A stretch of DNA of 64,000 nucleotides from Fictibacillus arsenicus. Its GTDB lineage: Bacteria; Bacillota; Bacilli; Bacillales; Fictibacillaceae. The position numbers and the translations under genes are program-made. Each line of letters begins with the position of its first letter. The first letter of the stretch is position 1. Shown in pieces: positions 202 to 10,149 of this stretch. Below the pieces are notes generated by a model. The model was not told where the DNA came from and ran no database searches. It saw only the letters and a list, made by a program, of their open reading frames with translations. The stretch is from contig NZ_CP016761.1 in the NCBI RefSeq assembly GCF_001642935.1, positions 2,480,001 through 2,544,000 on the forward strand, read 5' to 3'.

Positions 202-903
202 TTAGATATGAGCCTTTTTCAAAAAACGAATTAAGCTGTCTACGTGAATTGCTGCAGTATTAAATAATGTAATATCATCCCAATCATCTTGTTCAAGAAA
301 GATTGGAAGTTCAGTACACCCTAGAATCAATCCATTGATATTATATTTACTTTTCAATTGATGAATCATGTTCCCTACAGCCGTTATATCATCTTCAATA
401 AAAATGCCTCTGGAAAATTGTTTAAAAATCTTCTCCTGCAGGAAATCTTGCTGTGTTATTTCAGGAACAAAAATTTGGATTTCAGTGTTTATAAAAGGTT
501 TTTTGTATAGATCGCTCTGCATAGTTGGAATCGTACCTAACAGGCCTATCCGGTTCTTTTTGCTTTTCATTACTTCATTATAGGTCACATCTACAATGCT
601 GATCACTGGAACACCAACATTCCTTGTAATATCTTCATAAAAGAGATGAGGAGTATTTGAAGCTATAAGGATGACATCTGAGCCAGCTTTCATAAGATTA
701 TTCATGGATTCAGATAAATATTGTATAAGCTGCTGAAATTTCTTTCCCATTGTTAAATGATGCACTTTACTGACATCTACACTTTCAATAACCATTTCTG
801 GAAATACAGCGGAGTCAATTTTATTATGATATTGGCTGATTATCAGCTTGTAATACTCTATTGTAGCCTGTGGGGTCAAACCGCCTAAAATTCCAATTTT
901 CAT
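202..903 (-). CDS. Aspartate/glutamate racemase family protein
   Basis: A 233-residue protein of the cofactor-independent Asp/Glu racemase superfamily, which epimerises amino acids using a pair of acid/base residues, one from each half of the molecule. Visible motifs are the N-terminal GGLTPQATIEYY, the first catalytic loop ASNTPH (residues 81-86) and the second loop LGCTELP (C196). The usual first cysteine is replaced by S82, as in members with a one-cysteine active site such as E. coli YgeA, which has Thr there. It sits between a yqgN-like gene and rpmG and seems to be an accessory insertion in the conserved gene order. The substrate cannot be told from sequence. Confidence 0.85.
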   Translation of the reverse strand: MKIGILGGLTPQATIEYYKLIISQYHNKIDSAVFPEMVIESVDVSKVHHLTMGKKFQQLIQYLSESMNNLMKAGSDVILIASNTPHLFYEDITRNVGVPVISIVDVTYNEVMKSKKNRIGLLGTIPTMQSDLYKKPFINTEIQIFVPEITQQDFLQEKIFKQFSRGIFIEDDITAVGNMIHQLKSKYNINGLILGCTELPIFLEQDDWDDITLFNTAAIHVDSLIRFLKKAHI

Positions 904-1000: not shown

Positions 1001-1150
1001 TTACTTAGTTTCACGGTGAACTGTGTATTTCTTTAAACGCGGGCTGTATTTTTTAAGCTCTAAACGGTCTGGATTTGTACGCTTGTTTTTAGTAGTGATG
1101 TAGTTACGATCACCAGTCTCAGTACAAGCTAAAGTAATGTTTACACGCAT
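1001..1150 (-). CDS. rpmG: 50S ribosomal protein L33, cysteine-poor form
   Basis: A 49-codon gene that translates as [20 protein letters not shown]... and ends in VHRETK, diagnostic for bacterial L33 of the large ribosomal subunit. The start has GGAGGGAAACAAC upstream. Zinc-binding L33 forms carry two CxxC pairs; here only C9 remains, with T at the second position of the first pair and no cysteine at the second pair (KKYSPRLKK). This is therefore a zinc-independent (C-) paralogue. It lies in the position of B. subtilis rpmGA and has its own terminator. Confidence 0.95.
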
Positions 1151-1250: not shown

Positions 1251-3233
1251 CTAACGGGCAAGAGAGTTTTGTGAAAGTTTCTGATATACGGTCGTATATT
1301 CTTTTAGAACATCGACAAAAGTAGCATGTGACCATGTTAAAGGAGCAACTGATAATGCTTCACCTGTGAAGGGATGGAGCTGTTCTGGCAATACACCTGT
1401 TGAAAAACTATGCTCTTGAATCCATCGAAGAATTTCATGCGGCCGTTCTAAATCATGTACTATTTTTGCCTTTTGAATGTACCATTTTGCAACCCAAAGT
1501 GTACAAATCAGCCATGGATTGCCTGGAACCCTTGCAACTTCATGTGTTTGCTGAAAATAGTAATCATTTGTGTACCTTGCTATTCCACCGACACTCGTTT
1601 TTATACTTAAATCTTCTTCCATCTGATGCATCGTACGGATAACTCTTTCATCATCTGCTGAAAATACACCAAAGGCAAATAGGGCATACATGCTTGATTC
1701 CATCGTAAAATCTTTTTTATAAGCGTTATCATCTAATAAATAGATGCCTCTGATGAATCTGCCCGCGCCTTCATCATAGAGGTGTTTTTCCATTCCTGCT
1801 TTAATGCGTTCAGCACCTTTTTTATATCGTTCTGCCCGATCGTCTTCACCAAACAGCGTAGCAAATGAATATGCTGCCATCAGTCCCCCATACACACTGC
1901 TTGCTGTAAATGTAAATATTCCTCTTCTTTCCTCCCAAAGATCATAAGATTGCAGAGGAAGGTCAAGTTCACTATGCATGTATTGGAGCAAAAATCTAGC
2001 ACTTGGTCTGACAAGGGAGCGATAAAGAGATTGAGCAAATTCAATATCACCGGTTTCTTTGTAGTGCTCCCAGAAGGCCCACAAAACGAGTGCAGTTTCA
2101 TCTTCTTGGATAGGCAGCTGGCTTGCTCCACCTTTATCGATCATAGGGTGCCAGGAAGATCCAATCGAACCATCTGGATTATATTTATGATGCAAGTACC
2201 CTTCTTTCGTTAGAACATCAGCACATCGTCGATAAAAATTTTTAACCATGCCATGAAACCCTGCTTTCGATACAGCAGCAGCTATTAAAGCTCCGTCTCT
2301 TGGCCACATATAACTGTAATGATCGCGGTTATATTGCTGTATATCAGAGTCATTTGCTGCGATTATATAGCCATTCTCATTCGTTTGCGTACGTATTATA
2401 AGCAGACTTCGATTATATAGGTCTAGAAGTTCGTCTGAAAGATTGCATGGGTCAATCTTCGTTTTATTAACCCACCTCCGCCAATAAACATCGATTTTGT
2501 CCAGGGTTAAGGATGGACCGATCTCCATCAGATAATCAAATAGAGAAAAAACCTCTTCTCTGCTTTTACCAACTGTTGATGAATAAAATGCTTCTCTCGT
2601 TTCATTCGGCGGTATGACTCCAGTGACGGAGAATGTACTGTCTACCGATCCTTGAGCAATTGGATTCACATGCAGATGGCCATCTTCAGCATCTTTCCAT
2701 GTTCCTTCTGCGCTTAAAAATCGTTTTATACCTGTCGTGTATTGATCCATTCCTTTTCCTTCAAAAGAAGCATGGAACAAAAAATATCGATTCTTTTTAT
2801 AATGGATAATGACTGACTTATGAGGATCGTAATAGGCAGTATCACCAACCTCGGTCTCGTATATAGAAAGATCTTGATGAAAGAAAAGCTTAATCCTCTT
2901 TTCCTCATCTGTTTCATTGATAATACTTATTCTCCTCATAAACATGTTTTCTCTTTGATGTACAGCATCTTCAATCTTTAGACATACACCTTCTTTTTTG
3001 TTCCTGGCAAATGACTGAGTGACTAATGAATCGCTGCGGTAACCTGGTTCGATCATCCATTCTTTAGAGGAAAGCCAAGAAAAGGAGCCATTGATACTGG
3101 CTCCCAAACGGTTTACATGTCCCTGTACATGATTTTGCTGACCAACATAGGGAAAATATATATCTCTAATCTGTAAAAACTCGTCTAAGTTGATAAGTAA
3201 ATTTCCGTTGCCTAAAGCTAAATGTCTTGGCAT
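1251..3233 (-). CDS. Glycoside hydrolase family 15 protein (glucoamylase-like)
   Basis: A 660-residue protein with an N-terminal beta-rich domain (about 1-250) and an (alpha/alpha)6 barrel typical of GH15 enzymes, which release glucose from non-reducing ends of alpha-glucans by inversion. Catalytic landmarks are YMWPRDG (308-314), the general-acid region DLWEERRG (E434/E435) and the general-base region GVLPEQ near residue 620. No signal peptide is visible, so it should act in the cytoplasm. It is the last gene of a four-gene operon, starting 3 bases after the stop of the preceding gene with AGGTG as ribosome binding site inside that gene's end. The context suggests trimming or mobilising the glucan made by the upstream synthase. 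Trehalase-type activity is also possible within GH15. Confidence 0.88.
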   Translation of the reverse strand: MPRHLALGNGNLLINLDEFLQIRDIYFPYVGQQNHVQGHVNRLGASINGSFSWLSSKEWMIEPGYRSDSLVTQSFARNKKEGVCLKIEDAVHQRENMFMRRISIINETDEEKRIKLFFHQDLSIYETEVGDTAYYDPHKSVIIHYKKNRYFLFHASFEGKGMDQYTTGIKRFLSAEGTWKDAEDGHLHVNPIAQGSVDSTFSVTGVIPPNETREAFYSSTVGKSREEVFSLFDYLMEIGPSLTLDKIDVYWRRWVNKTKIDPCNLSDELLDLYNRSLLIIRTQTNENGYIIAANDSDIQQYNRDHYSYMWPRDGALIAAAVSKAGFHGMVKNFYRRCADVLTKEGYLHHKYNPDGSIGSSWHPMIDKGGASQLPIQEDETALVLWAFWEHYKETGDIEFAQSLYRSLVRPSARFLLQYMHSELDLPLQSYDLWEERRGIFTFTASSVYGGLMAAYSFATLFGEDDRAERYKKGAERIKAGMEKHLYDEGAGRFIRGIYLLDDNAYKKDFTMESSMYALFAFGVFSADDERVIRTMHQMEEDLSIKTSVGGIARYTNDYYFQQTHEVARVPGNPWLICTLWVAKWYIQKAKIVHDLERPHEILRWIQEHSFSTGVLPEQLHPFTGEALSVAPLTWSHATFVDVLKEYTTVYQKLSQNSLAR

Positions 3234-3236
3234 ACT

Positions 3237-5648
3237 TTACACCTGCTGATAAAGCTGGATTTTTTCGATGTACTGTGATGCAGCCTGTTTTGCTTGTTCA
3301 GGGTTCGTGTTTTGAGAGTAAACCGTAAATACAGGTTGTTCCACATCAGGCAAAATTAATGTCCAGCCGCCTTCTGGATGAAATACCTTGATTCCATCAA
3401 GCAACTCTACATTGTTATCCCTTATATCTTCCATTAACCTTCGCATCACACGGCCTTTTTTATCCTTTGGACATGGTACATATTCTCTCAGCATATGAAC
3501 ATCAGGCAGCATTTTTACGAGTTCTGAAAGTGTGATTTGCTGCATCGCCATCACTTCCAGGATATGAACAAATGCATATTGTGCATCGTATTGATAGTTT
3601 AGTACACCTTCGCCAACTTCCATTATGGACCTTGGGTTAGCTTTTGTGCGGATCAGCTTCCCTTTCAGCCGTTCTGCGATTGAATCTAAAGCAGAAGAGC
3701 CATACACAGGAATAGCCATTTCCTTTTGCTTGCCTTGAGAGAAAGCTGTGAAAACGTAAAGAGCGAGCATGGTTTCATCGTCTAAAACCTCACCAGTTTC
3801 TGTAATCAATCGCAATGTTTCTCCTGCCTCTCCTATCAGAACACCTATATTGGCATTTGTTACTCTAACAAAAGAAGCCATCTCTTCAGGCTTTGTCTGA
3901 TACGGGGCAGTAAGAATTTCACAGTTAAGTCGGTTATAGAGATTCGGAATAAAATTTAAATAAGGCTGATGATTATAATTTACGACTACCCTGAATTTTG
4001 CCTCTTGTATTCTTTTTTCCTGTATTTCTTCAAGCAATGCAGAAATATAATCCTCATGCTTATTCGCCTGTACCGTACCTTTTCCAATTCTATCAAACGA
4101 TGCCCGTCTATAATCTTCCTGCCAGTATGCATTTTCAATCTTTCTTTCAAGATCTGAGTGAATCGGCAAGCCTTTGTTATCATAAAACTCGATTATTAAT
4201 TGTTTTTCGCCAGTAGGGTTTGAGAAACGGACGTAGACCCCGCCTTCCAAACGTTCTTCCTCAATAGAAAATCTGACAACCGGTGCCACTGTCGGACTGA
4301 TATCAAGTGTATGTACACCTGAAGAATGAAGTCCTTGTATAAAGGATTGCTTGATCATTACAGAAAAATCATGTGAATCACTTGCGATCAGAATCTGTGA
4401 ACCATATGGAAGAACCGCTCCGTATGCAGAGGCTATTCTCGCGATGTAATCTGGAGTGATTTCAACATTAGCTATGCCGGAAACTCCCCGTGATCCAAAT
4501 AAGGACTTGGTCGCTTTTTTTCCCCAAACGATGGACGTATGAACAAGTGCATCTTCAAAGATTTCTTTTTCCGGCCATATTTTCACATCAGGTTTTAAAG
4601 TAGCATTTTTACCGATCGTACAATGATTTCCAACTACTGCATGCTCAAAAATCGATGCATCTTTCTCAACTTTTGTTCCATTCGCAATAGTAGCACCTCT
4701 TAGCTCACATTGATCGCCAACAAAAACGTCATTCCATAGCACTGTTTTTTTCAATGAGCTACCAGAACTCACAACGCTGTTTTTCCCAACAACAGACAGT
4801 TTGCCAACGTGAGCTCCCTTTCGAATTACAGCGCCATCTGCAATACTTACAGGACCCTCAATCTTAGCTCCTTCTTCGATAAATACGTTCTCACCAATCC
4901 AAATTCCAGGTTCATGCTCTTTTCCGGCAAAAGGAAGATTGACAAGGCCATTTAGCATATCATAGTGAGACTGGCGATACTGCTGCAGACTTCCGATATC
5001 CGACCAGTAACCATCTGCTTGATATCCGAACAAATTTTTGTCTTCTTTCATTATTAAAGGAAAGAGGTCTTTACTGAAATCTACAGGTACATCTTTTTCG
5101 ATATATTGGAAAACTTCGGGCTCAAGAACATATATACCTGTATTCACTGTATCGCTGAAAACTTCATTCCAACTTGGTTTTTCTAAGAATCGGATGATCT
5201 TTCCTTCCTGATTCGTCATGATCACACCATATTCCAGTGGTGATTCAACTTGTTTCATAAAAATGGTTACTAGTGAATCCTTTTCTTCATGAAAATTAAT
5301 CCCTTTTTCAAGGTCAAAATCAGTTAAAGCATCTCCGCTAATAACAATAAACCGTTCATCTAAAAACTCTTCAGCATTTTTAATTGAACCTGCTGTTCCA
5401 AGTGGAGAATCTTCAACGAAATAATGAAGATTAACACCAAAATTCCGACCATCGCCAAAATAATTCTTGATGACATCAGGGAGATAATGTACTGTAACAG
5501 CAATATCAGTTATTCCATACCTTTTTAACAGCTCAATGCCGTATTCCATAACTGGCTTGTGAAGCATGGGCACCATAGGTTTTGGCATGTTGCATGTAAG
5601 AGGTCTTAAACGTGTTCCTTTTCCGCCAGCCATGATTACACCTTTCAT
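3237..5648 (-). CDS. Sugar-1-phosphate nucleotidyltransferase fused to a degenerate phosphohexomutase domain
   Basis: An 803-residue fusion. Residues 1-235 are a nucleotidyltransferase with GGKGTRLRPLT (8-18), PKPM, GDALTDFD (105-112) and EKPSW (156-160). Residues 245-375 are a left-handed beta-helix hexapeptide region. Residues 380-803 have the fold order of phosphomannomutase/phosphoglucomutase, starting LFGSRGVSG. The mutase motifs are lost: the TASHNP loop reads VRFSNP (473-478), the metal loop DGDADR reads GEAGETLR (606-613), and the phosphate loop RPSGTEP reads LPDVEQP (766-772). It would make an NDP-sugar from a sugar-1-phosphate but is unlikely to do mutase chemistry. Annotation pipelines may call it mannose-1-phosphate guanylyltransferase; the operon context suggests a glucose nucleotide for glucan synthesis. 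Its ATG overlaps the upstream stop by one base. Confidence 0.82.
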   Translation of the reverse strand: MKGVIMAGGKGTRLRPLTCNMPKPMVPMLHKPVMEYGIELLKRYGITDIAVTVHYLPDVIKNYFGDGRNFGVNLHYFVEDSPLGTAGSIKNAEEFLDERFIVISGDALTDFDLEKGINFHEEKDSLVTIFMKQVESPLEYGVIMTNQEGKIIRFLEKPSWNEVFSDTVNTGIYVLEPEVFQYIEKDVPVDFSKDLFPLIMKEDKNLFGYQADGYWSDIGSLQQYRQSHYDMLNGLVNLPFAGKEHEPGIWIGENVFIEEGAKIEGPVSIADGAVIRKGAHVGKLSVVGKNSVVSSGSSLKKTVLWNDVFVGDQCELRGATIANGTKVEKDASIFEHAVVGNHCTIGKNATLKPDVKIWPEKEIFEDALVHTSIVWGKKATKSLFGSRGVSGIANVEITPDYIARIASAYGAVLPYGSQILIASDSHDFSVMIKQSFIQGLHSSGVHTLDISPTVAPVVRFSIEEERLEGGVYVRFSNPTGEKQLIIEFYDNKGLPIHSDLERKIENAYWQEDYRRASFDRIGKGTVQANKHEDYISALLEEIQEKRIQEAKFRVVVNYNHQPYLNFIPNLYNRLNCEILTAPYQTKPEEMASFVRVTNANIGVLIGEAGETLRLITETGEVLDDETMLALYVFTAFSQGKQKEMAIPVYGSSALDSIAERLKGKLIRTKANPRSIMEVGEGVLNYQYDAQYAFVHILEVMAMQQITLSELVKMLPDVHMLREYVPCPKDKKGRVMRRLMEDIRDNNVELLDGIKVFHPEGGWTLILPDVEQPVFTVYSQNTNPEQAKQAASQYIEKIQLYQQV

Positions 5649-8446
5649 TACACCATTCCTCCTACTTTTGCGGTATTATTTTGAATTTTGTTATATAAGT
5701 CAACTGTTCTTTCTGCAATTGAATCCCAGCTAAAAATAGTTCTAGCTGTTTCTTCACCTTTACGAGCCATTTCTTTGCAATGTTCACGATTAGCAAACAT
5801 ATATTCTACTGCCCAAACTATGCTGTGAGGATCGTTTGGAAAGACCTTCAGGCCGGTTTTCTCATGCTCTATAATCTCTTTTAATCCTCCGGTGTCTGAG
5901 ACAATCGTTAATTTCCCTGCAGCCATCCCTTCAAGTGCAACAATTCCAAAAGGCTCATAATGACTTGGAAAGAGAGCCGCATCCGCTTTTGCAAACCACA
6001 CATTTCTCTCCTCATCACTGACAAAACCAGCTAAGTGAACATAACGTTCTAATTGTTTTTTTCTCACCATTTCATTTAATTCATCAAATAAAGGTCCTTT
6101 TCCGGCAATCACAAATCTCACTTGAAGCCCTTTATTTCTTAAAATATCTGCAGCTTCAACAATAGTTTGAAAGCCTTTTTCTTTTACGAGTCTTCCTACC
6201 GAAAAAAGCAATAGTTCATTCTCAGAGCGATTTTCATCATTACGTTCTTCATTCAATTCAGCTATTATCTGTTGTGGATCTATGCCATTAGGCAAGATCG
6301 AAATTTTATCTTCAGGAATTTGAAAAACATCGGTAAGTTCTTTTTTCATGTAAGTACTGCAGACAATGAGGCTATCAGAACCGTTCATAAGCTCCCATTC
6401 TTTTTGATTAATCTCATATTGAAGAGGTGAAGTGATTCCGTTGTTTCTTCCATGTTCAGTGGCATGTATAGTCGTAATTAACGGTAGTTCTAATTCTTTT
6501 TTTACGGCTAGCGCTGCAACGGATACGAGCCAATCATGGGCATGGATACAATCAAACTTAATTTTCTTGGATAGCTCAACAGCATAATCGGCCATTGCTA
6601 AATTCAGGCTGCCGGTCCAATGAAAGAAAGATTCAAAAGATGGCTGTTTTCCTTTGAGCCTATATACGTGAACGCCATTATTTATTTCGTAGTCTGGATA
6701 GCCCTCTACTGCAGAAGTTAGCACATACACTTCATGCCCCTGGTCGGTTAATTTACGCGATAAATCAAATACATGCCTTGATAGCCCGCCAACAACCATC
6801 GGCGGAAATTCCCAAGAGAGCATCAGTATTTTTTTGCTTTTATTGTTTTGGTTTGTATATTGCATATTCACATATAAATCATGCTGATTTTTAAAGTAAT
6901 GCCATAAATTTACCATGATAAATGGATAATCATTTTCATATTCTGAGATTTCATTAATGTTATAACTTCCATTTTGAATAGCCTCATATAATGTATGAAA
7001 CCTTTCGATATGTTCTTGAAATCTATCTTTTGCATATTGTGAAGCACTATTGCCTTCAATAATAAAAGCCCAATCAGAACTTGCTGCAAGCATCCATTCT
7101 CTTACCATTTGGTTAGCATAACGTTCTGTCACAATATTCACTTTTTCTTTTGAAAGCTTGGCGGCTAATTCCACTAATTTCTCTTCACAGTAATGAAGAT
7201 GACGATACATCCATGCATTTGCATGGTTTAGCCAAACTTCGCCCGTCCCATTCCTTCCCCATGTAGAAAAGCAAGGTCTTACGGTTTCAAGATCTTGATA
7301 ATGTCTGTGTAAAAATTCTTGTGGTGTGATCCAGCTGATGTTTTGTTCAATCGAAACTTCCATGGATTGAAGTAAGAATTCTGGTCCTTCAAACCACCAG
7401 TGTCCAAAAAGTTCTGCGTCAAAAGGTGCTGTAATAAGTTGAGGAGGAAAAGATTGTTTGTTGTTATGTAAGTAGTCTTCGATGCGAATAGTAAAATCTC
7501 TAGAGTGCTGTTTTATTTTTTCTTCAGCATACGTTCTGTTATACCAGTCTTTATTTTCGGTTTCACCTGTAATTCGCCAATATTTTAGCGAGGTATCTAC
7601 TTTGATCCCGTCAGGATGAATAAATCCTTTAATATAATCAAAGTCACGTTCATAAGCAACGTCGCGATAAAACTCTCTGTAATCGAAATCACCCGGATAT
7701 CCAACAGAAGAATTCCATATGGTCTCAGAAATAACCTGATTTCTCGGGAATAAAGCTACCCCATGCGGCGAATAAACGGGTGCTCCTATTCCTTTCTTTG
7801 GAACAGGTTTGCTCTTAAGAAGTGTTTGTTCATCAACAAACGTGTAGCGGATTCCTGCATCAGCTAATATTTTGTCTATCCCAGGAGAATACGCACATTC
7901 CGGAAGCCAAAATCCTGTTGGTTTATTCCCGAAATATTTCTCATACGTATTTATACCTGCAAGAATTTGCGCTTTTACTCCTTGCTCAGTCTGAACATAT
8001 GGCAAGAACGCGTGAGTTGCCGCAGATGTAATGCATGTAATTTTCCCTTCATTCATAAAGGTTTTAAATGCTTTGATAATCTGACAGTCATGATTCTGAT
8101 ACGTATCCATAATCTTTTTATAGCGTGTTTCGTAAAAACTGATAATTTCTTTTTCTTGTTTGTTTTTTGAAAAGTTTTTTTCTTTTTTGATGAGTTTTAA
8201 GGTGGAATCGAGATGCTCTAAATAGCGTTTTTGAATAACTGGATCATTCAATAGTTCAAGTAATGGAGGGGAAAATGATAAAGTCCAAGATAAGGATTCA
8301 GGCTGTTCTTCGAGAACCCATAATAACGGGATATATGACTCAGTAAGTGCCTCAAAAACCCATCTTTCCTCTAATCGATTTGCTTCATTATGTCTCACAT
8401 AAGGAAGGTGAGCGTGCAAAACCAATGCGAAATACCCGTTAGACAT
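5648..8446 (-). CDS. GH57 alpha-glucan branching enzyme fused to GT4 glucan (glycogen) synthase
   Basis: A 932-residue bifunctional protein. The N-terminal half (about 1-530) is GH57 of the branching-enzyme type: LVLHAHLPYVRH (9-19), GFWLPECAYSPG (178-189) with nucleophile E183, and APFDAELFGHWWFEG (340-354) with acid/base D343. The C-terminal half (about 538-932) is a GT4 glycosyltransferase: WEFPPMVVGGLSRH, the HAHDW motif, SVGRLVKEKG, and EPFGIVALEGMAAG carrying the E-x7-E pair. It would elongate an alpha-1,4-glucan from an NDP-glucose and branch it, replacing separate GlgA and GlgB. No signal peptide is seen. The start follows AGGAGAG by 5 bases. It overlaps the next gene by one base (TAATG), which suggests translational coupling. 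Confidence 0.9.
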   Translation of the reverse strand: MSNGYFALVLHAHLPYVRHNEANRLEERWVFEALTESYIPLLWVLEEQPESLSWTLSFSPPLLELLNDPVIQKRYLEHLDSTLKLIKKEKNFSKNKQEKEIISFYETRYKKIMDTYQNHDCQIIKAFKTFMNEGKITCITSAATHAFLPYVQTEQGVKAQILAGINTYEKYFGNKPTGFWLPECAYSPGIDKILADAGIRYTFVDEQTLLKSKPVPKKGIGAPVYSPHGVALFPRNQVISETIWNSSVGYPGDFDYREFYRDVAYERDFDYIKGFIHPDGIKVDTSLKYWRITGETENKDWYNRTYAEEKIKQHSRDFTIRIEDYLHNNKQSFPPQLITAPFDAELFGHWWFEGPEFLLQSMEVSIEQNISWITPQEFLHRHYQDLETVRPCFSTWGRNGTGEVWLNHANAWMYRHLHYCEEKLVELAAKLSKEKVNIVTERYANQMVREWMLAASSDWAFIIEGNSASQYAKDRFQEHIERFHTLYEAIQNGSYNINEISEYENDYPFIMVNLWHYFKNQHDLYVNMQYTNQNNKSKKILMLSWEFPPMVVGGLSRHVFDLSRKLTDQGHEVYVLTSAVEGYPDYEINNGVHVYRLKGKQPSFESFFHWTGSLNLAMADYAVELSKKIKFDCIHAHDWLVSVAALAVKKELELPLITTIHATEHGRNNGITSPLQYEINQKEWELMNGSDSLIVCSTYMKKELTDVFQIPEDKISILPNGIDPQQIIAELNEERNDENRSENELLLFSVGRLVKEKGFQTIVEAADILRNKGLQVRFVIAGKGPLFDELNEMVRKKQLERYVHLAGFVSDEERNVWFAKADAALFPSHYEPFGIVALEGMAAGKLTIVSDTGGLKEIIEHEKTGLKVFPNDPHSIVWAVEYMFANREHCKEMARKGEETARTIFSWDSIAERTVDLYNKIQNNTAKVGGMV

Positions 8447-8457
8447 TGTGTACTCTC

Positions 8458-9108
8458 CTATCTGATTTTTTGATAGTATGAATAAGTTGAAAAATTCTCA
8501 AGCCATTCAGGCTGTGTTATATTCTGCTGTTTCCATCGTTCTATCTTTTCATCGTAAGAACTGCTCATTTCGGCTGCTCCAGTCTCAGCTGGATTTGTCC
8601 GCAACAATGTAAAAAAGCTGCCGTCAAATGTGCGGGTTCCAATATCAGCAATGTACGTCCGGTCAGGTTCTAACGAATGCAGGAACCAGTTGTTTGTCAT
8701 AGGAGGAAGATCTATTTCAAATGTTCTGTGTGCATTGTGCCCGAAAAATAAGATATCCGTGACATCGTATATTTTTAATACACCTGGAAGCTCTTCCCAC
8801 TTTGTACGGAAGTGGTGTTCAGCCATATTCTTGATAGCTTCCGAGAAACTCCAATATACATACAAACTCTCTGGAGTCCTCGGCATAAGACAAGCATTTG
8901 CTTTCTTATATTCAAACGGCATTGACCATTTTTCTTTTTTTATTTCTTCCGATGGAGCAGAAATTTCTGCGGGCGGCGATTGCTGCTGCCGGTATTTATT
9001 CCAGCGGTACTGAACCTTGCCTAAAGACATATTCATTCTTTCAGCTATTTCTTGCAGCGTAAGTCCTCTTTCCTTTAACTTCACAATATCTTCGATCAAG
9101 TTCATCAC
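8458..9108 (-). CDS. DUF4912 domain protein, first gene of the glucan operon
   Basis: A 216-residue protein with a short N-terminal helix-turn-helix-like segment (GLTLQEIAERMNMSLGKVQYRW, about 15-36), a charged linker, and a DUF4912 domain (about 65-190) with PESLYVYWSFSE and the beta-rich stretch ending in RTFDGSFFTLLRT. DUF4912 has no established biochemical role that I know of; the fold looks carbohydrate-module-like, which is inference. The furthest-upstream start codons (GTG/ATG at 9108/9105) sit too close to the GAGG ribosome binding site, while TTG at 9099 has ideal 8-base spacing, so the true start may be three codons in. It leads the operon, 11 bases before the GH57-GT4 gene, so a regulatory or glucan-binding partner role is plausible. 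Confidence 0.75.
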   Translation of the reverse strand: MMNLIEDIVKLKERGLTLQEIAERMNMSLGKVQYRWNKYRQQQSPPAEISAPSEEIKKEKWSMPFEYKKANACLMPRTPESLYVYWSFSEAIKNMAEHHFRTKWEELPGVLKIYDVTDILFFGHNAHRTFEIDLPPMTNNWFLHSLEPDRTYIADIGTRTFDGSFFTLLRTNPAETGAAEMSSSYDEKIERWKQQNITQPEWLENFSTYSYYQKIR

Positions 9109-9257: not shown

Positions 9258-9272
9258 TTGAAACCGGTTGCT
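9258..9272. promoter_or_regulatory. Candidate catabolite-responsive element (CcpA site)
   Basis: TTGAAACCGGTTGCT matches every fixed position of the B. subtilis cre consensus WTGNAANCGNWNNCW. It lies about 60 bases upstream of the -35 of the glucan operon promoter and about 200 bases upstream of the divergent gene. An upstream position is where CcpA activates genes such as ackA; the direction of control here is inference. Confidence 0.55.
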
Positions 9273-9472: not shown

Positions 9473-9664
9473 ATGGAGTTTGCAATTTTTGGATTATTGC
9501 TAGTTGGTATTATTCTTTTGATTCTTTCCTTTCGAAAAAATCGTGAAAACTCAGTTGAAACACAGCTTGAAAACTTTACGATTCAATTAATGAAAGAAAT
9601 CTATCAAATTAAAAAGAAGTTAAAAGTTCTTGAAGATGAAATGATGATTAACGATAAGAACTAA
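9473..9664 (+). CDS. Small membrane-anchored protein of unknown function
   Basis: A 63-residue protein with one N-terminal membrane segment (AIFGLLLVGIILLILSF, about 4-20), then a basic stretch and an amphipathic, probably coiled-coil tail rich in Lys and Glu (about 30-60). The ribosome binding site GGGAGG is 5 bases upstream of the ATG. It is followed 20 bases later by another small gene on the same strand, so the two are probably co-transcribed. In B. subtilis two small genes of unknown function (yqzC, yqzD) also occur near the pst operon; I cannot prove this is one of them. Confidence 0.75.
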   Translation: MEFAIFGLLLVGIILLILSFRKNRENSVETQLENFTIQLMKEIYQIKKKLKVLEDEMMINDKN

Positions 9665-9684
9665 ATTTGTAAGGGGAAATTAGT

Positions 9685-10149
9685 ATGACAAGCAAAAACC
9701 TTCGCGGATTTTCAGCTGGTATTATAATTTCTACTGGAATATTGGCTGGTGTATACTACACAGCGGACACAGAAAACCGTTCTGAATTAACGGATACTGC
9801 AGTGGAACAATATCTTTCTGAAAAAGGCGAGTTGGCAATTTCAAAAGAGGAATATACTTCTTTAACAGAAGCGGAAAGTGCAGCGGCTGCTCCTGCAAAA
9901 GAAGAAGTCGAAGCTGAACCTGAAAAAGAAGAAGAGAAAGTCTTTCAAATGACGTTAACGATCACACAAGGTATGAGTACCGGCGAAGTGTGTGACCTTC
10001 TTCAAAAAGGAAACATTATCAAGGACAGCAAAGAATTCTTAAAGTTTTTAAGGTCCAATAATCTTGAAGGTGCTGTCAGAGCTGAATCTCATCAGGTGAA
10101 CAGCAACATGAACTTTGATGAATTAGCTAAAGAAATTACAAGTTCATAA
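9685..10149 (+). CDS. Membrane-anchored protein with MltG/YceG-like N-terminal subdomain
   Basis: A 154-residue protein with an N-terminal membrane segment (FSAGIIISTGILAGVYY, about 9-25), an acidic Glu/Ala-rich linker (about 60-90) and a C-terminal segment (about 92-154) with ITQGMSTGEVCDLLQKGNIIKD and a closing MNFDELAKEI. That last part resembles the LysM-like module at the start of MltG-type lytic transglycosylases (GMTSGQIADLL...VIKS), but no catalytic transglycosylase domain follows. It therefore looks like an envelope protein carrying only the accessory module. Start ATG with AGGGGAA upstream. It is followed by a terminator and converges on phoU. Confidence 0.75.
   Translation: MTSKNLRGFSAGIIISTGILAGVYYTADTENRSELTDTAVEQYLSEKGELAISKEEYTSLTEAESAAAAPAKEEVEAEPEKEEEKVFQMTLTITQGMSTGEVCDLLQKGNIIKDSKEFLKFLRSNNLEGAVRAESHQVNSNMNFDELAKEITSS

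Follow-up and report, generated by a model that had tools for sequence, protein, structure and literature searches.

The window analysed here, 64,000 nucleotides corresponding to bases 2480001-2544000 within the 4.06-Mb single-contig genome of Fictibacillus arsenicus, contains four open reading frames (ORFs) of the minus strand that encode, in this order, a helix-turn-helix (HTH)-DUF4912 protein, a fusion of a glycoside hydrolase family 57 (GH57) branching enzyme with a family 4 glycosyltransferase (GT4), a fusion of a sugar-1-phosphate nucleotidyltransferase with a hexapeptide region and a pseudo-phosphoglucomutase (PGM) domain, and a GH15 glucoamylase-type hydrolase. These genes probably constitute an operon, self-contained and derived from an old Bacillota cluster, which serves an intracellular branched alpha-glucan of the storage type and outlived the classical glg genes in the host family, Fictibacillaceae. 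Gene content and order, conservation, motifs and the failure of searches for glg genes are shown by the data; the activities discussed below, together with the polymer, its donor nucleotide and the roles of DUF4912 and of the pseudo-PGM domain, are those that we infer from the sequences.

In the ORF list of the window the four genes are packed with gaps of 11, -1 and 3 bases, and every domain named for the four proteins scores above its Pfam cut-off; ORF coordinates and Pfam matches thus agree with the sequence-only reading of this DNA, which had claimed four minus-strand genes of these enzyme families with this spacing. The arrangement is not due to chance, being found in the same order and at the same place across the host family, and also in other genera; the four genes are co-conserved.

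The domain content fits a pathway in which, as had also been proposed, an alpha-glucan is synthesised, branched and hydrolysed, and the set is complete for these steps. Glucose-1-phosphate would be made by a phosphoglucomutase and converted by the nucleotidyltransferase domain to a nucleoside diphosphate (NDP)-glucose; the GlgA/GlgM-like GT4 domain would lengthen alpha-1,4 chains, and the covalently linked GH57 domain, which like AmyC would also hydrolyse to some extent, would add alpha-1,6 branches. GH15 would free glucose at chain ends for rephosphorylation by glucokinase, and a type I pullulanase encoded elsewhere can debranch. Mobilisation would fall to GlgP in other genomes and to GH15 in the host family. 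Like the classical glgBCDAP system, the operon would cover sugar-nucleotide formation, alpha-1,4 elongation, branching and release; unlike it, the operon has GT4 in place of GT5, GH57 fused to the synthase in place of a GH13 branching enzyme, GH15 in place of GlgP, a non-GlgC nucleotidyltransferase with a pseudo-PGM domain, and a dedicated HTH-DUF4912 protein.

Domain content and predicted activities

The GH57-GT4 fusion (5648..8446; coordinates are those of the window, and all parts of the operon lie on the minus strand) is a 932-residue protein according to the ORF, Pfam and NCBIfam evidence. Its GH57 and BE_C part (residues 1-520, 6887..8446) scores 171 and 90 bits against the respective Pfam models, and its GT4 part (residues 535-932, 5651..6844) 117 bits against Glyco_transf_4 and 142 bits against Glycos_transf_1. 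The closest solved chain of the GH57 part is AmyC of T. maritima (2b5d, E 2.7e-123), according to the available portion of PMC6616209 a branching enzyme whose hydrolytic activity reaches up to 30%. As in AmyC, the catalytic Glu and Asp are kept (E183 and D343, which fall on the catalytic pair of GH57 in the alignment) and there is no large insertion between the two catalytic motifs; unlike AmyC, whose solved chain comprises 528 residues without GT4, the host GH57 is fused to GT4. Alignment finds the catalytic Glu and Asp, which here accompany GH57 and BE_C domains above cut-off, in 30/30 host-family loci, in 15/15 further loci of the order and in 61 of the 67 fusions of the GH15 loci described below. 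AmyC-like branching with some hydrolysis is predicted for this part.

The GT4 part combines GT4 domains with an EX7E pair (E831/E839), which is present in all 40 loci compared (20 from the host family and 20 at the level of the order). Its five best profile matches, spanning 9 bits, are 6kih (the Tll1590 protein), three GlgA glycogen synthase chains and GlgM (6tvp), and because GlgA, GlgM and Tll1590 lie so close together, the acceptor is not readable from the sequence. The likeness to GlgM and to archaeal GlgA (2bis) consists in their place among these five matches and in the kept EX7E; unlike them, the host GT4 stays under the glgA_Coryne cut-off, and 6kih scores slightly higher than either.

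The third gene (3237..5648; ORF, Pfam and NCBIfam) encodes 803 residues, comprising the nucleotidyltransferase domain (residues 1-245, 4914..5648; NTP_transferase, PF00483, 196 bits), a left-handed beta-helix hexapeptide region (residues 246-378, 4515..4913; Hexapep, 47 bits) and a PGM/PMM-like domain (residues 379-803, 3240..4514; PGM_PMM_I, 85 bits). The best solved relative of the first domain is 8x7s, a UTP--glucose-1-phosphate uridylyltransferase (E 1.2e-66), which we guess to be a cyanobacterial CugP-type enzyme. UDP-glucose is a more likely product than ADP-glucose. The phosphoserine, metal, sugar and phosphate motifs of the PGM-like domain are all absent in the 29/29 aligned sequences that bear the domain and, as judged by pattern, in 53 fusions (39 from the GH15 loci, including 26 outside Fictibacillus, and 14 from distant loci). 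An active PGM within the fusion, supplying glucose-1-phosphate, was accordingly considered and rejected. Two other PGM-family proteins of the host genome, found by a PF02878 search and resembling GlmM and PgcA in length and motifs, keep the four motifs.

The dead domain is nevertheless under strong constraint. Its nonsynonymous divergence (dN) from two relatives, 0.029 and 0.058, is the lowest or next to lowest among the parts compared, and from a third, more distant relative it is 0.203, with lower values for the nucleotidyltransferase (0.131) and hexapeptide (0.189) parts, synonymous divergence (dS) being mostly saturated throughout this comparison. In some loci the PGM-like domain, or the entire nucleotidyltransferase gene, is missing. 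The domain probably serves as a sugar-phosphate sensor or an assembly part of the nucleotidyltransferase.

The first gene (8458..9108, GTG start) encodes a 216-residue protein delineated by the ORF, Pfam and an AlphaFold2 model (mean pLDDT, the predicted local distance difference test, 86.7; predicted template modelling score, pTM, 0.55; 33 sequences). Residues 1-45 (8974..9108) are predicted to form a three-helix HTH, the model helices being 4-13, 18-24 and 29-43, with a weak Sigma70_r4 match below the cut-off; this N-terminus is missing from some members. The DUF4912 domain itself (PF16258, residues 67-187, 8548..8910; 99.6 bits, cut-off 29.4) is modelled as an FN3-like beta-sandwich at residues 70-179 (Foldseek and VIA-align; best Z 10.5, root-mean-square deviation 2.9 over 94 residues), a structural likeness by which no function is shown. 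The matches listed in the fold search are FN3 domains and their receptors, with no known glucan-binding family among them, which excludes nothing. We propose that the protein is a partner which probably binds glucan or enzyme, and which may also bind DNA. The HTH at the N-terminus of DUF4912, the PGM/PMM-like partner of the nucleotidyltransferase and its missing active-site motifs go beyond what the sequence-only reading had noticed.

The last gene (1251..3233; ORF, Pfam and NCBIfam) encodes the 660-residue GH15 hydrolase (Pfam, 101 bits, cut-off 22), which has relatives at 97% in F. arsenicus and 96% in F. sp. BK138.

Classical glycogen genes in the host family and beyond

Glycogen phosphorylase (PF00343) was found in 0/34 genomes searched of the host family, with 12/14 control genomes positive. 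A GT5 GlgA (TIGR02095) exceeds the cut-off in 1/34, which is not the host genome; below the cut-off, this model has matches in all 34, the GT4 part itself among them. Since the PF00483 matches of the host genome are the fusion and GlmU alone, neither a GlgC nor a GalU-type protein was found, and the fusion reaches 122.5 of 424.9 bits against the glgC model. Seven GH13 proteins were found in the host genome, one of them scanned short of its end, none of which is above a GlgB cut-off among the matches listed; they include two of the phosphotrehalase type and one type I pullulanase (753 bits against a cut-off of 504.5). About 8 kb past rpmG lies the gene of a ROK glucokinase (372 bits, cut-off 260). 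Hence the lack of classic glg genes and of phosphorylase, claimed earlier for the cluster, extends to the whole genome in the PF00343, TIGR02095, PF00483 and GH13 searches; no other glycogen route was found by the searches made, outside which lie GlgE, MalQ and the trehalose routes. The only host-family genome with a GT5 GlgA above cut-off (G030) carries glgB, glgC, glgD and glgA (L100:3446-9127), each passing its curated cut-off, and no glgP was found in it by PF00343.

Of 397 Bacillales genomes in an evenly drawn sample, 140 match the fusion (E <= 1e-60, many through the GT4 part alone) and 259 have glgP. Outside the host family, 16 members of which were left out, glgP is present in 125/125 genomes with a match vs 134/256 without (Fisher's test, p = 3e-27, kinship among genomes ignored), and all 15 host-family members of the sample that have a match lack it. 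The locus is thus nested in glgP-bearing genomes, with the host family as the exception, and its strict company with glgP elsewhere argues for a product within glycogen-type metabolism. As an alternative to glg, which is how the operon had been presented, it can be upheld for the host genome, in which no glg was found, and for the host family with its general lack of glgP, but not for the matching genomes outside.

Full-length GH15, taken as at least 60 bits in a frame of at least 600 residues, is present in 13/15 host-family members with a fusion match and in 1/125 other matching genomes (read by eye), the latter count leaving out three genomes at 29-35 bits (frames of 624-648 residues) and three at 20-23 bits (frames of 1138-1139).

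Nature of the product

Several observations weigh against a storage-type glucan operon. The GH57 part stays below the NCBIfam branching-enzyme equivalogs (315 of 1000 and 275 of 920 bits for the Thermococcales and Thermus models), the GT4 part below glgA_Coryne (TIGR02149, 148.4 of 302.4 bits) and GH15 below the oligosaccharide amylase model TIGR01577 (342 of 821 bits), and the top NCBIfam match of the nucleotidyltransferase is a mannose-1-phosphate guanylyltransferase, at 256 bits under a cut-off of 440. In one genus of the host family (g4), the synthetic genes lack an adjoining GH15 in 5/5 loci, and the two g4 genomes in the order sample have GH15 frames of only 351 and 367 residues; as g4 lacks glgP and, in these five loci and two genomes, full-length GH15, mobilisation is unexplained there. 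Two of the 34 host-family genomes are without the fusion, GlgA above cut-off and a glgP match alike. The open-licence literature yielded no enzyme assay of any member. Furthermore, its coexistence with glgP elsewhere shows the locus to be no simple substitute.

This last point also supports an explanation that we consider unlikely, although it survives better than the others, namely that the operon yields, beside bulk glycogen, an alpha-glucan of a specialised or accessory kind (a primer, an envelope glucan, or a reserve for spores or stress), and that the host family retains only that product: a second synthase would otherwise be redundant in the glgP-bearing genomes. The fate of the two halves of the fusion points the same way, given that the GH57 catalytic residues are lost in L067-L071, L073 and L075, and GH57 is missing in L072 and L086, i.e., in 9/40 loci altogether, while EX7E is kept in 40/40, so that GT4 together with DUF4912 is the durable core. 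However, the ORFs of the cassette include no export, anchoring or envelope gene, the GH57 site is intact in every host-family locus aligned, and the presence of GH15 in the operon suggests turnover. It is decidedly improbable that the system is mainly degradative or remodelling, with an AmyC-like GH57 amylase/transferase and GH15 processing maltodextrins, and GT4 and the nucleotidyltransferase serving some other glycoside. The hydrolytic activity of AmyC would be in line with such a role, as would the Pseudalkalibacillus/Alkalihalobacillus-type records L157-L166, in which GH15 stays in place without the other three genes; against it, GH57 is covalently fused to a GlgA/GlgM-like glycosyltransferase, is linked in the operon to a nucleotidyltransferase and is accompanied by BE_C, with no transporter in the operon. 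Finally, that the nucleotidyltransferase makes GDP-mannose and GT4 is a mannosyltransferase, as the top NCBIfam match might suggest, is very hard to sustain, as the best solved guanylyltransferase relative (E 4.6e-43) falls far behind the uridylyltransferase and the fused GH57 and the GH15 are alpha-glucan families.

We retain the storage-type branched glucan as the probable product. A broader version of this proposal, which we put forward as quite possible but short of probable, is that a second glycogen system exists beside glg throughout the Bacillota and has so far escaped characterisation. It would consist of a synthase of the GT4 type, DUF4912 as its partner, and a uridylyltransferase in which a pseudo-mutase acts as sensor, and would have become the sole glycogen pathway in the host family, where synthase and branching enzyme are fused and GH15 replaces the phosphorylase; DUF4912 would then represent a new glucan- or enzyme-sensing class linked to DNA binding. 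As a candidate for GT4-type glycogen synthesis in bacteria the operon is concrete and open to test; it also points to a function for DUF4912, and one of its parts is a conserved pseudoenzyme joined to a sugar nucleotidyltransferase.

Position, inheritance and related systems

The fusion is present in 31/34 host-family genomes. The 20 host-family and 20 order-level loci were all selected for a GT4 match, genomes without a match being viewed in three cases only. In 40/40 of these loci rpmG follows the cassette, or what remains of it, within ~0.8 kb (L075 has it on the opposite strand), and in 40/40 the other side holds pst/phoU genes, a divergent small gene pair, or both. In two of the three host-family genomes without the fusion, no further ORF of at least 60 residues is listed in the interval from the small pair to rpmG. 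In the third, G030, this interval holds by rpmG a 128-residue ORF (L108:5407-5793) that is 55% identical to the end of the PGM domain, and its glgBCDA genes are on a contig other than that with this scar. Because the rpmG site is shared by all 40 loci and a PGM scar is kept in G030, the pattern is one of inheritance and loss, not insertion. The earlier suggestion that the cassette interrupts the rpmG-pst gene order and was gained by transfer is rejected, given that the cassette or a reduced form of it adjoins rpmG in every GT4-bearing locus examined, that other genera have the four-gene order and that one loss left a scar.

A scan of GH15 loci, covering the best 80 of 306 confirmed stretches with flanks of up to 10 kb, some ending at contig ends, found the order DUF4912 > GH57-GT4 > nucleotidyltransferase-PGM > GH15 in 23/80 loci (13 in Fictibacillus, six in Brevibacillus, two in Ammoniphilus and two in Paenibacillus). 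Another 15 loci combine the nucleotidyltransferase with two fusion genes, 29 have GH15 without DUF4912, the fusion or nucleotidyltransferase-PGM, and the remaining 13 show other subsets or arrangements. The first 20 order-level loci contained no full GH15 and in six cases an N-terminal fragment of it, and late recruitment of this gene in the host family was considered; this idea was dropped, as Brevibacillus, Ammoniphilus and Paenibacillus carry GH15 at the same place. In six order-level loci an ORF of 200-253 residues by rpmG, at the position of GH15, matches only GH15 residues 3-237, the N-terminal region (L067:4741-5385, L068:5428-6183, L071:7570-8172, L079:5276-5902, L082:10510-11256 and L085:12997-13758); a Pfam scan of four of the six gave no match. 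Six Paenibacillus loci (L180, L183, L186, L187, L207 and L208) have two DUF4912/GH57-GT4 units, in which the first GH57 copy is without the catalytic Asp and the second is intact.

DUF4912 occurs in 191/398 sampled genomes of the phylum. In 19 of 20 distant loci (16-19 kb each), hand-chosen outside the class among the matches listed, with best E 4.8e-44 to 1.6e-28, it directly adjoins GH57, in one of them as a GH57-GT4 fusion, in accord with the dedicated partner that it had been taken for. The nucleotidyltransferase-PGM fusion is present in 15 of the 20 (in one case seen in the later part only), GT4 at a minimum of 38% in 13, and GH15 at a minimum of 44% in five. Judging from these sequences, the host operon looks like a concatenation of DUF4912-GH57, GT4-nucleotidyltransferase-PGM and GH15 units, fused at the first junction.

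Archaeal systems offer a parallel in the literature. According to the available portion of PMC11046441, archaeal GT4 genes lie beside GH57 genes (Picrophilus, Methanoculleus), and an uncharacterised GT4 glycogen synthase has been speculated. These clusters differ from the operon in that the genes are separate and that this portion mentions neither DUF4912 nor a nucleotidyltransferase-PGM fusion; nor does it discuss such a bacterial operon or mention CugP, sporulation or B. subtilis. The words GT4, glycosyltransferase and fused do not occur in PMC6037648, and the available portion of PMC6629080 mentions no GT4 fusion. For DUF4912, the open-licence literature yielded an unrelated mention only, and in that literature the operon is apparently uncharacterised.

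A reduced form seems to be present in B. subtilis. There yqgL is opposite in strand and next to yqzDC, as the DUF4912 gene is here, and the 5' untranslated region of yqzDC overlaps yqgL on the opposite strand (available portion of PMC3297567). The B. subtilis control genome matches DUF4912, the standing of this match against the cut-off not being stated, and from its position we infer that yqgL is the DUF4912 gene. The adjacent yqgM is presumably a GT4 gene. The position of yqgL thus makes part of the question testable in a model organism.

In the window, the downstream boundary is rpmG itself (1001..1150, minus strand, recognised by sequence). On the upstream side lies the divergent small gene pair (9473..10149, plus strand), which corresponds in position to yqzD/yqzC (sweD/sweC); sweD and sweC are described as co-factors of FtsEX-CwlO in B. 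subtilis (available portion of PMC6705773). Promoter-like sites are rarer in the window than in shuffles (18 vs 25.9), and terminator-like sites are no commoner (6 vs 5.9). A sequence resembling a catabolite-responsive element (Cre) is found upstream of the DUF4912 gene (9259-9272), and the pattern matches 13/16 upstream regions of the host family; with two mismatches allowed it occurs 102 times in the window vs 74 expected by shuffling, and the site is a weak lead. Beyond rpmG, the window contains an Asp/Glu racemase-family gene (202-903, minus strand), which looks like a local insertion, since among the 40 loci only L048 shows it.

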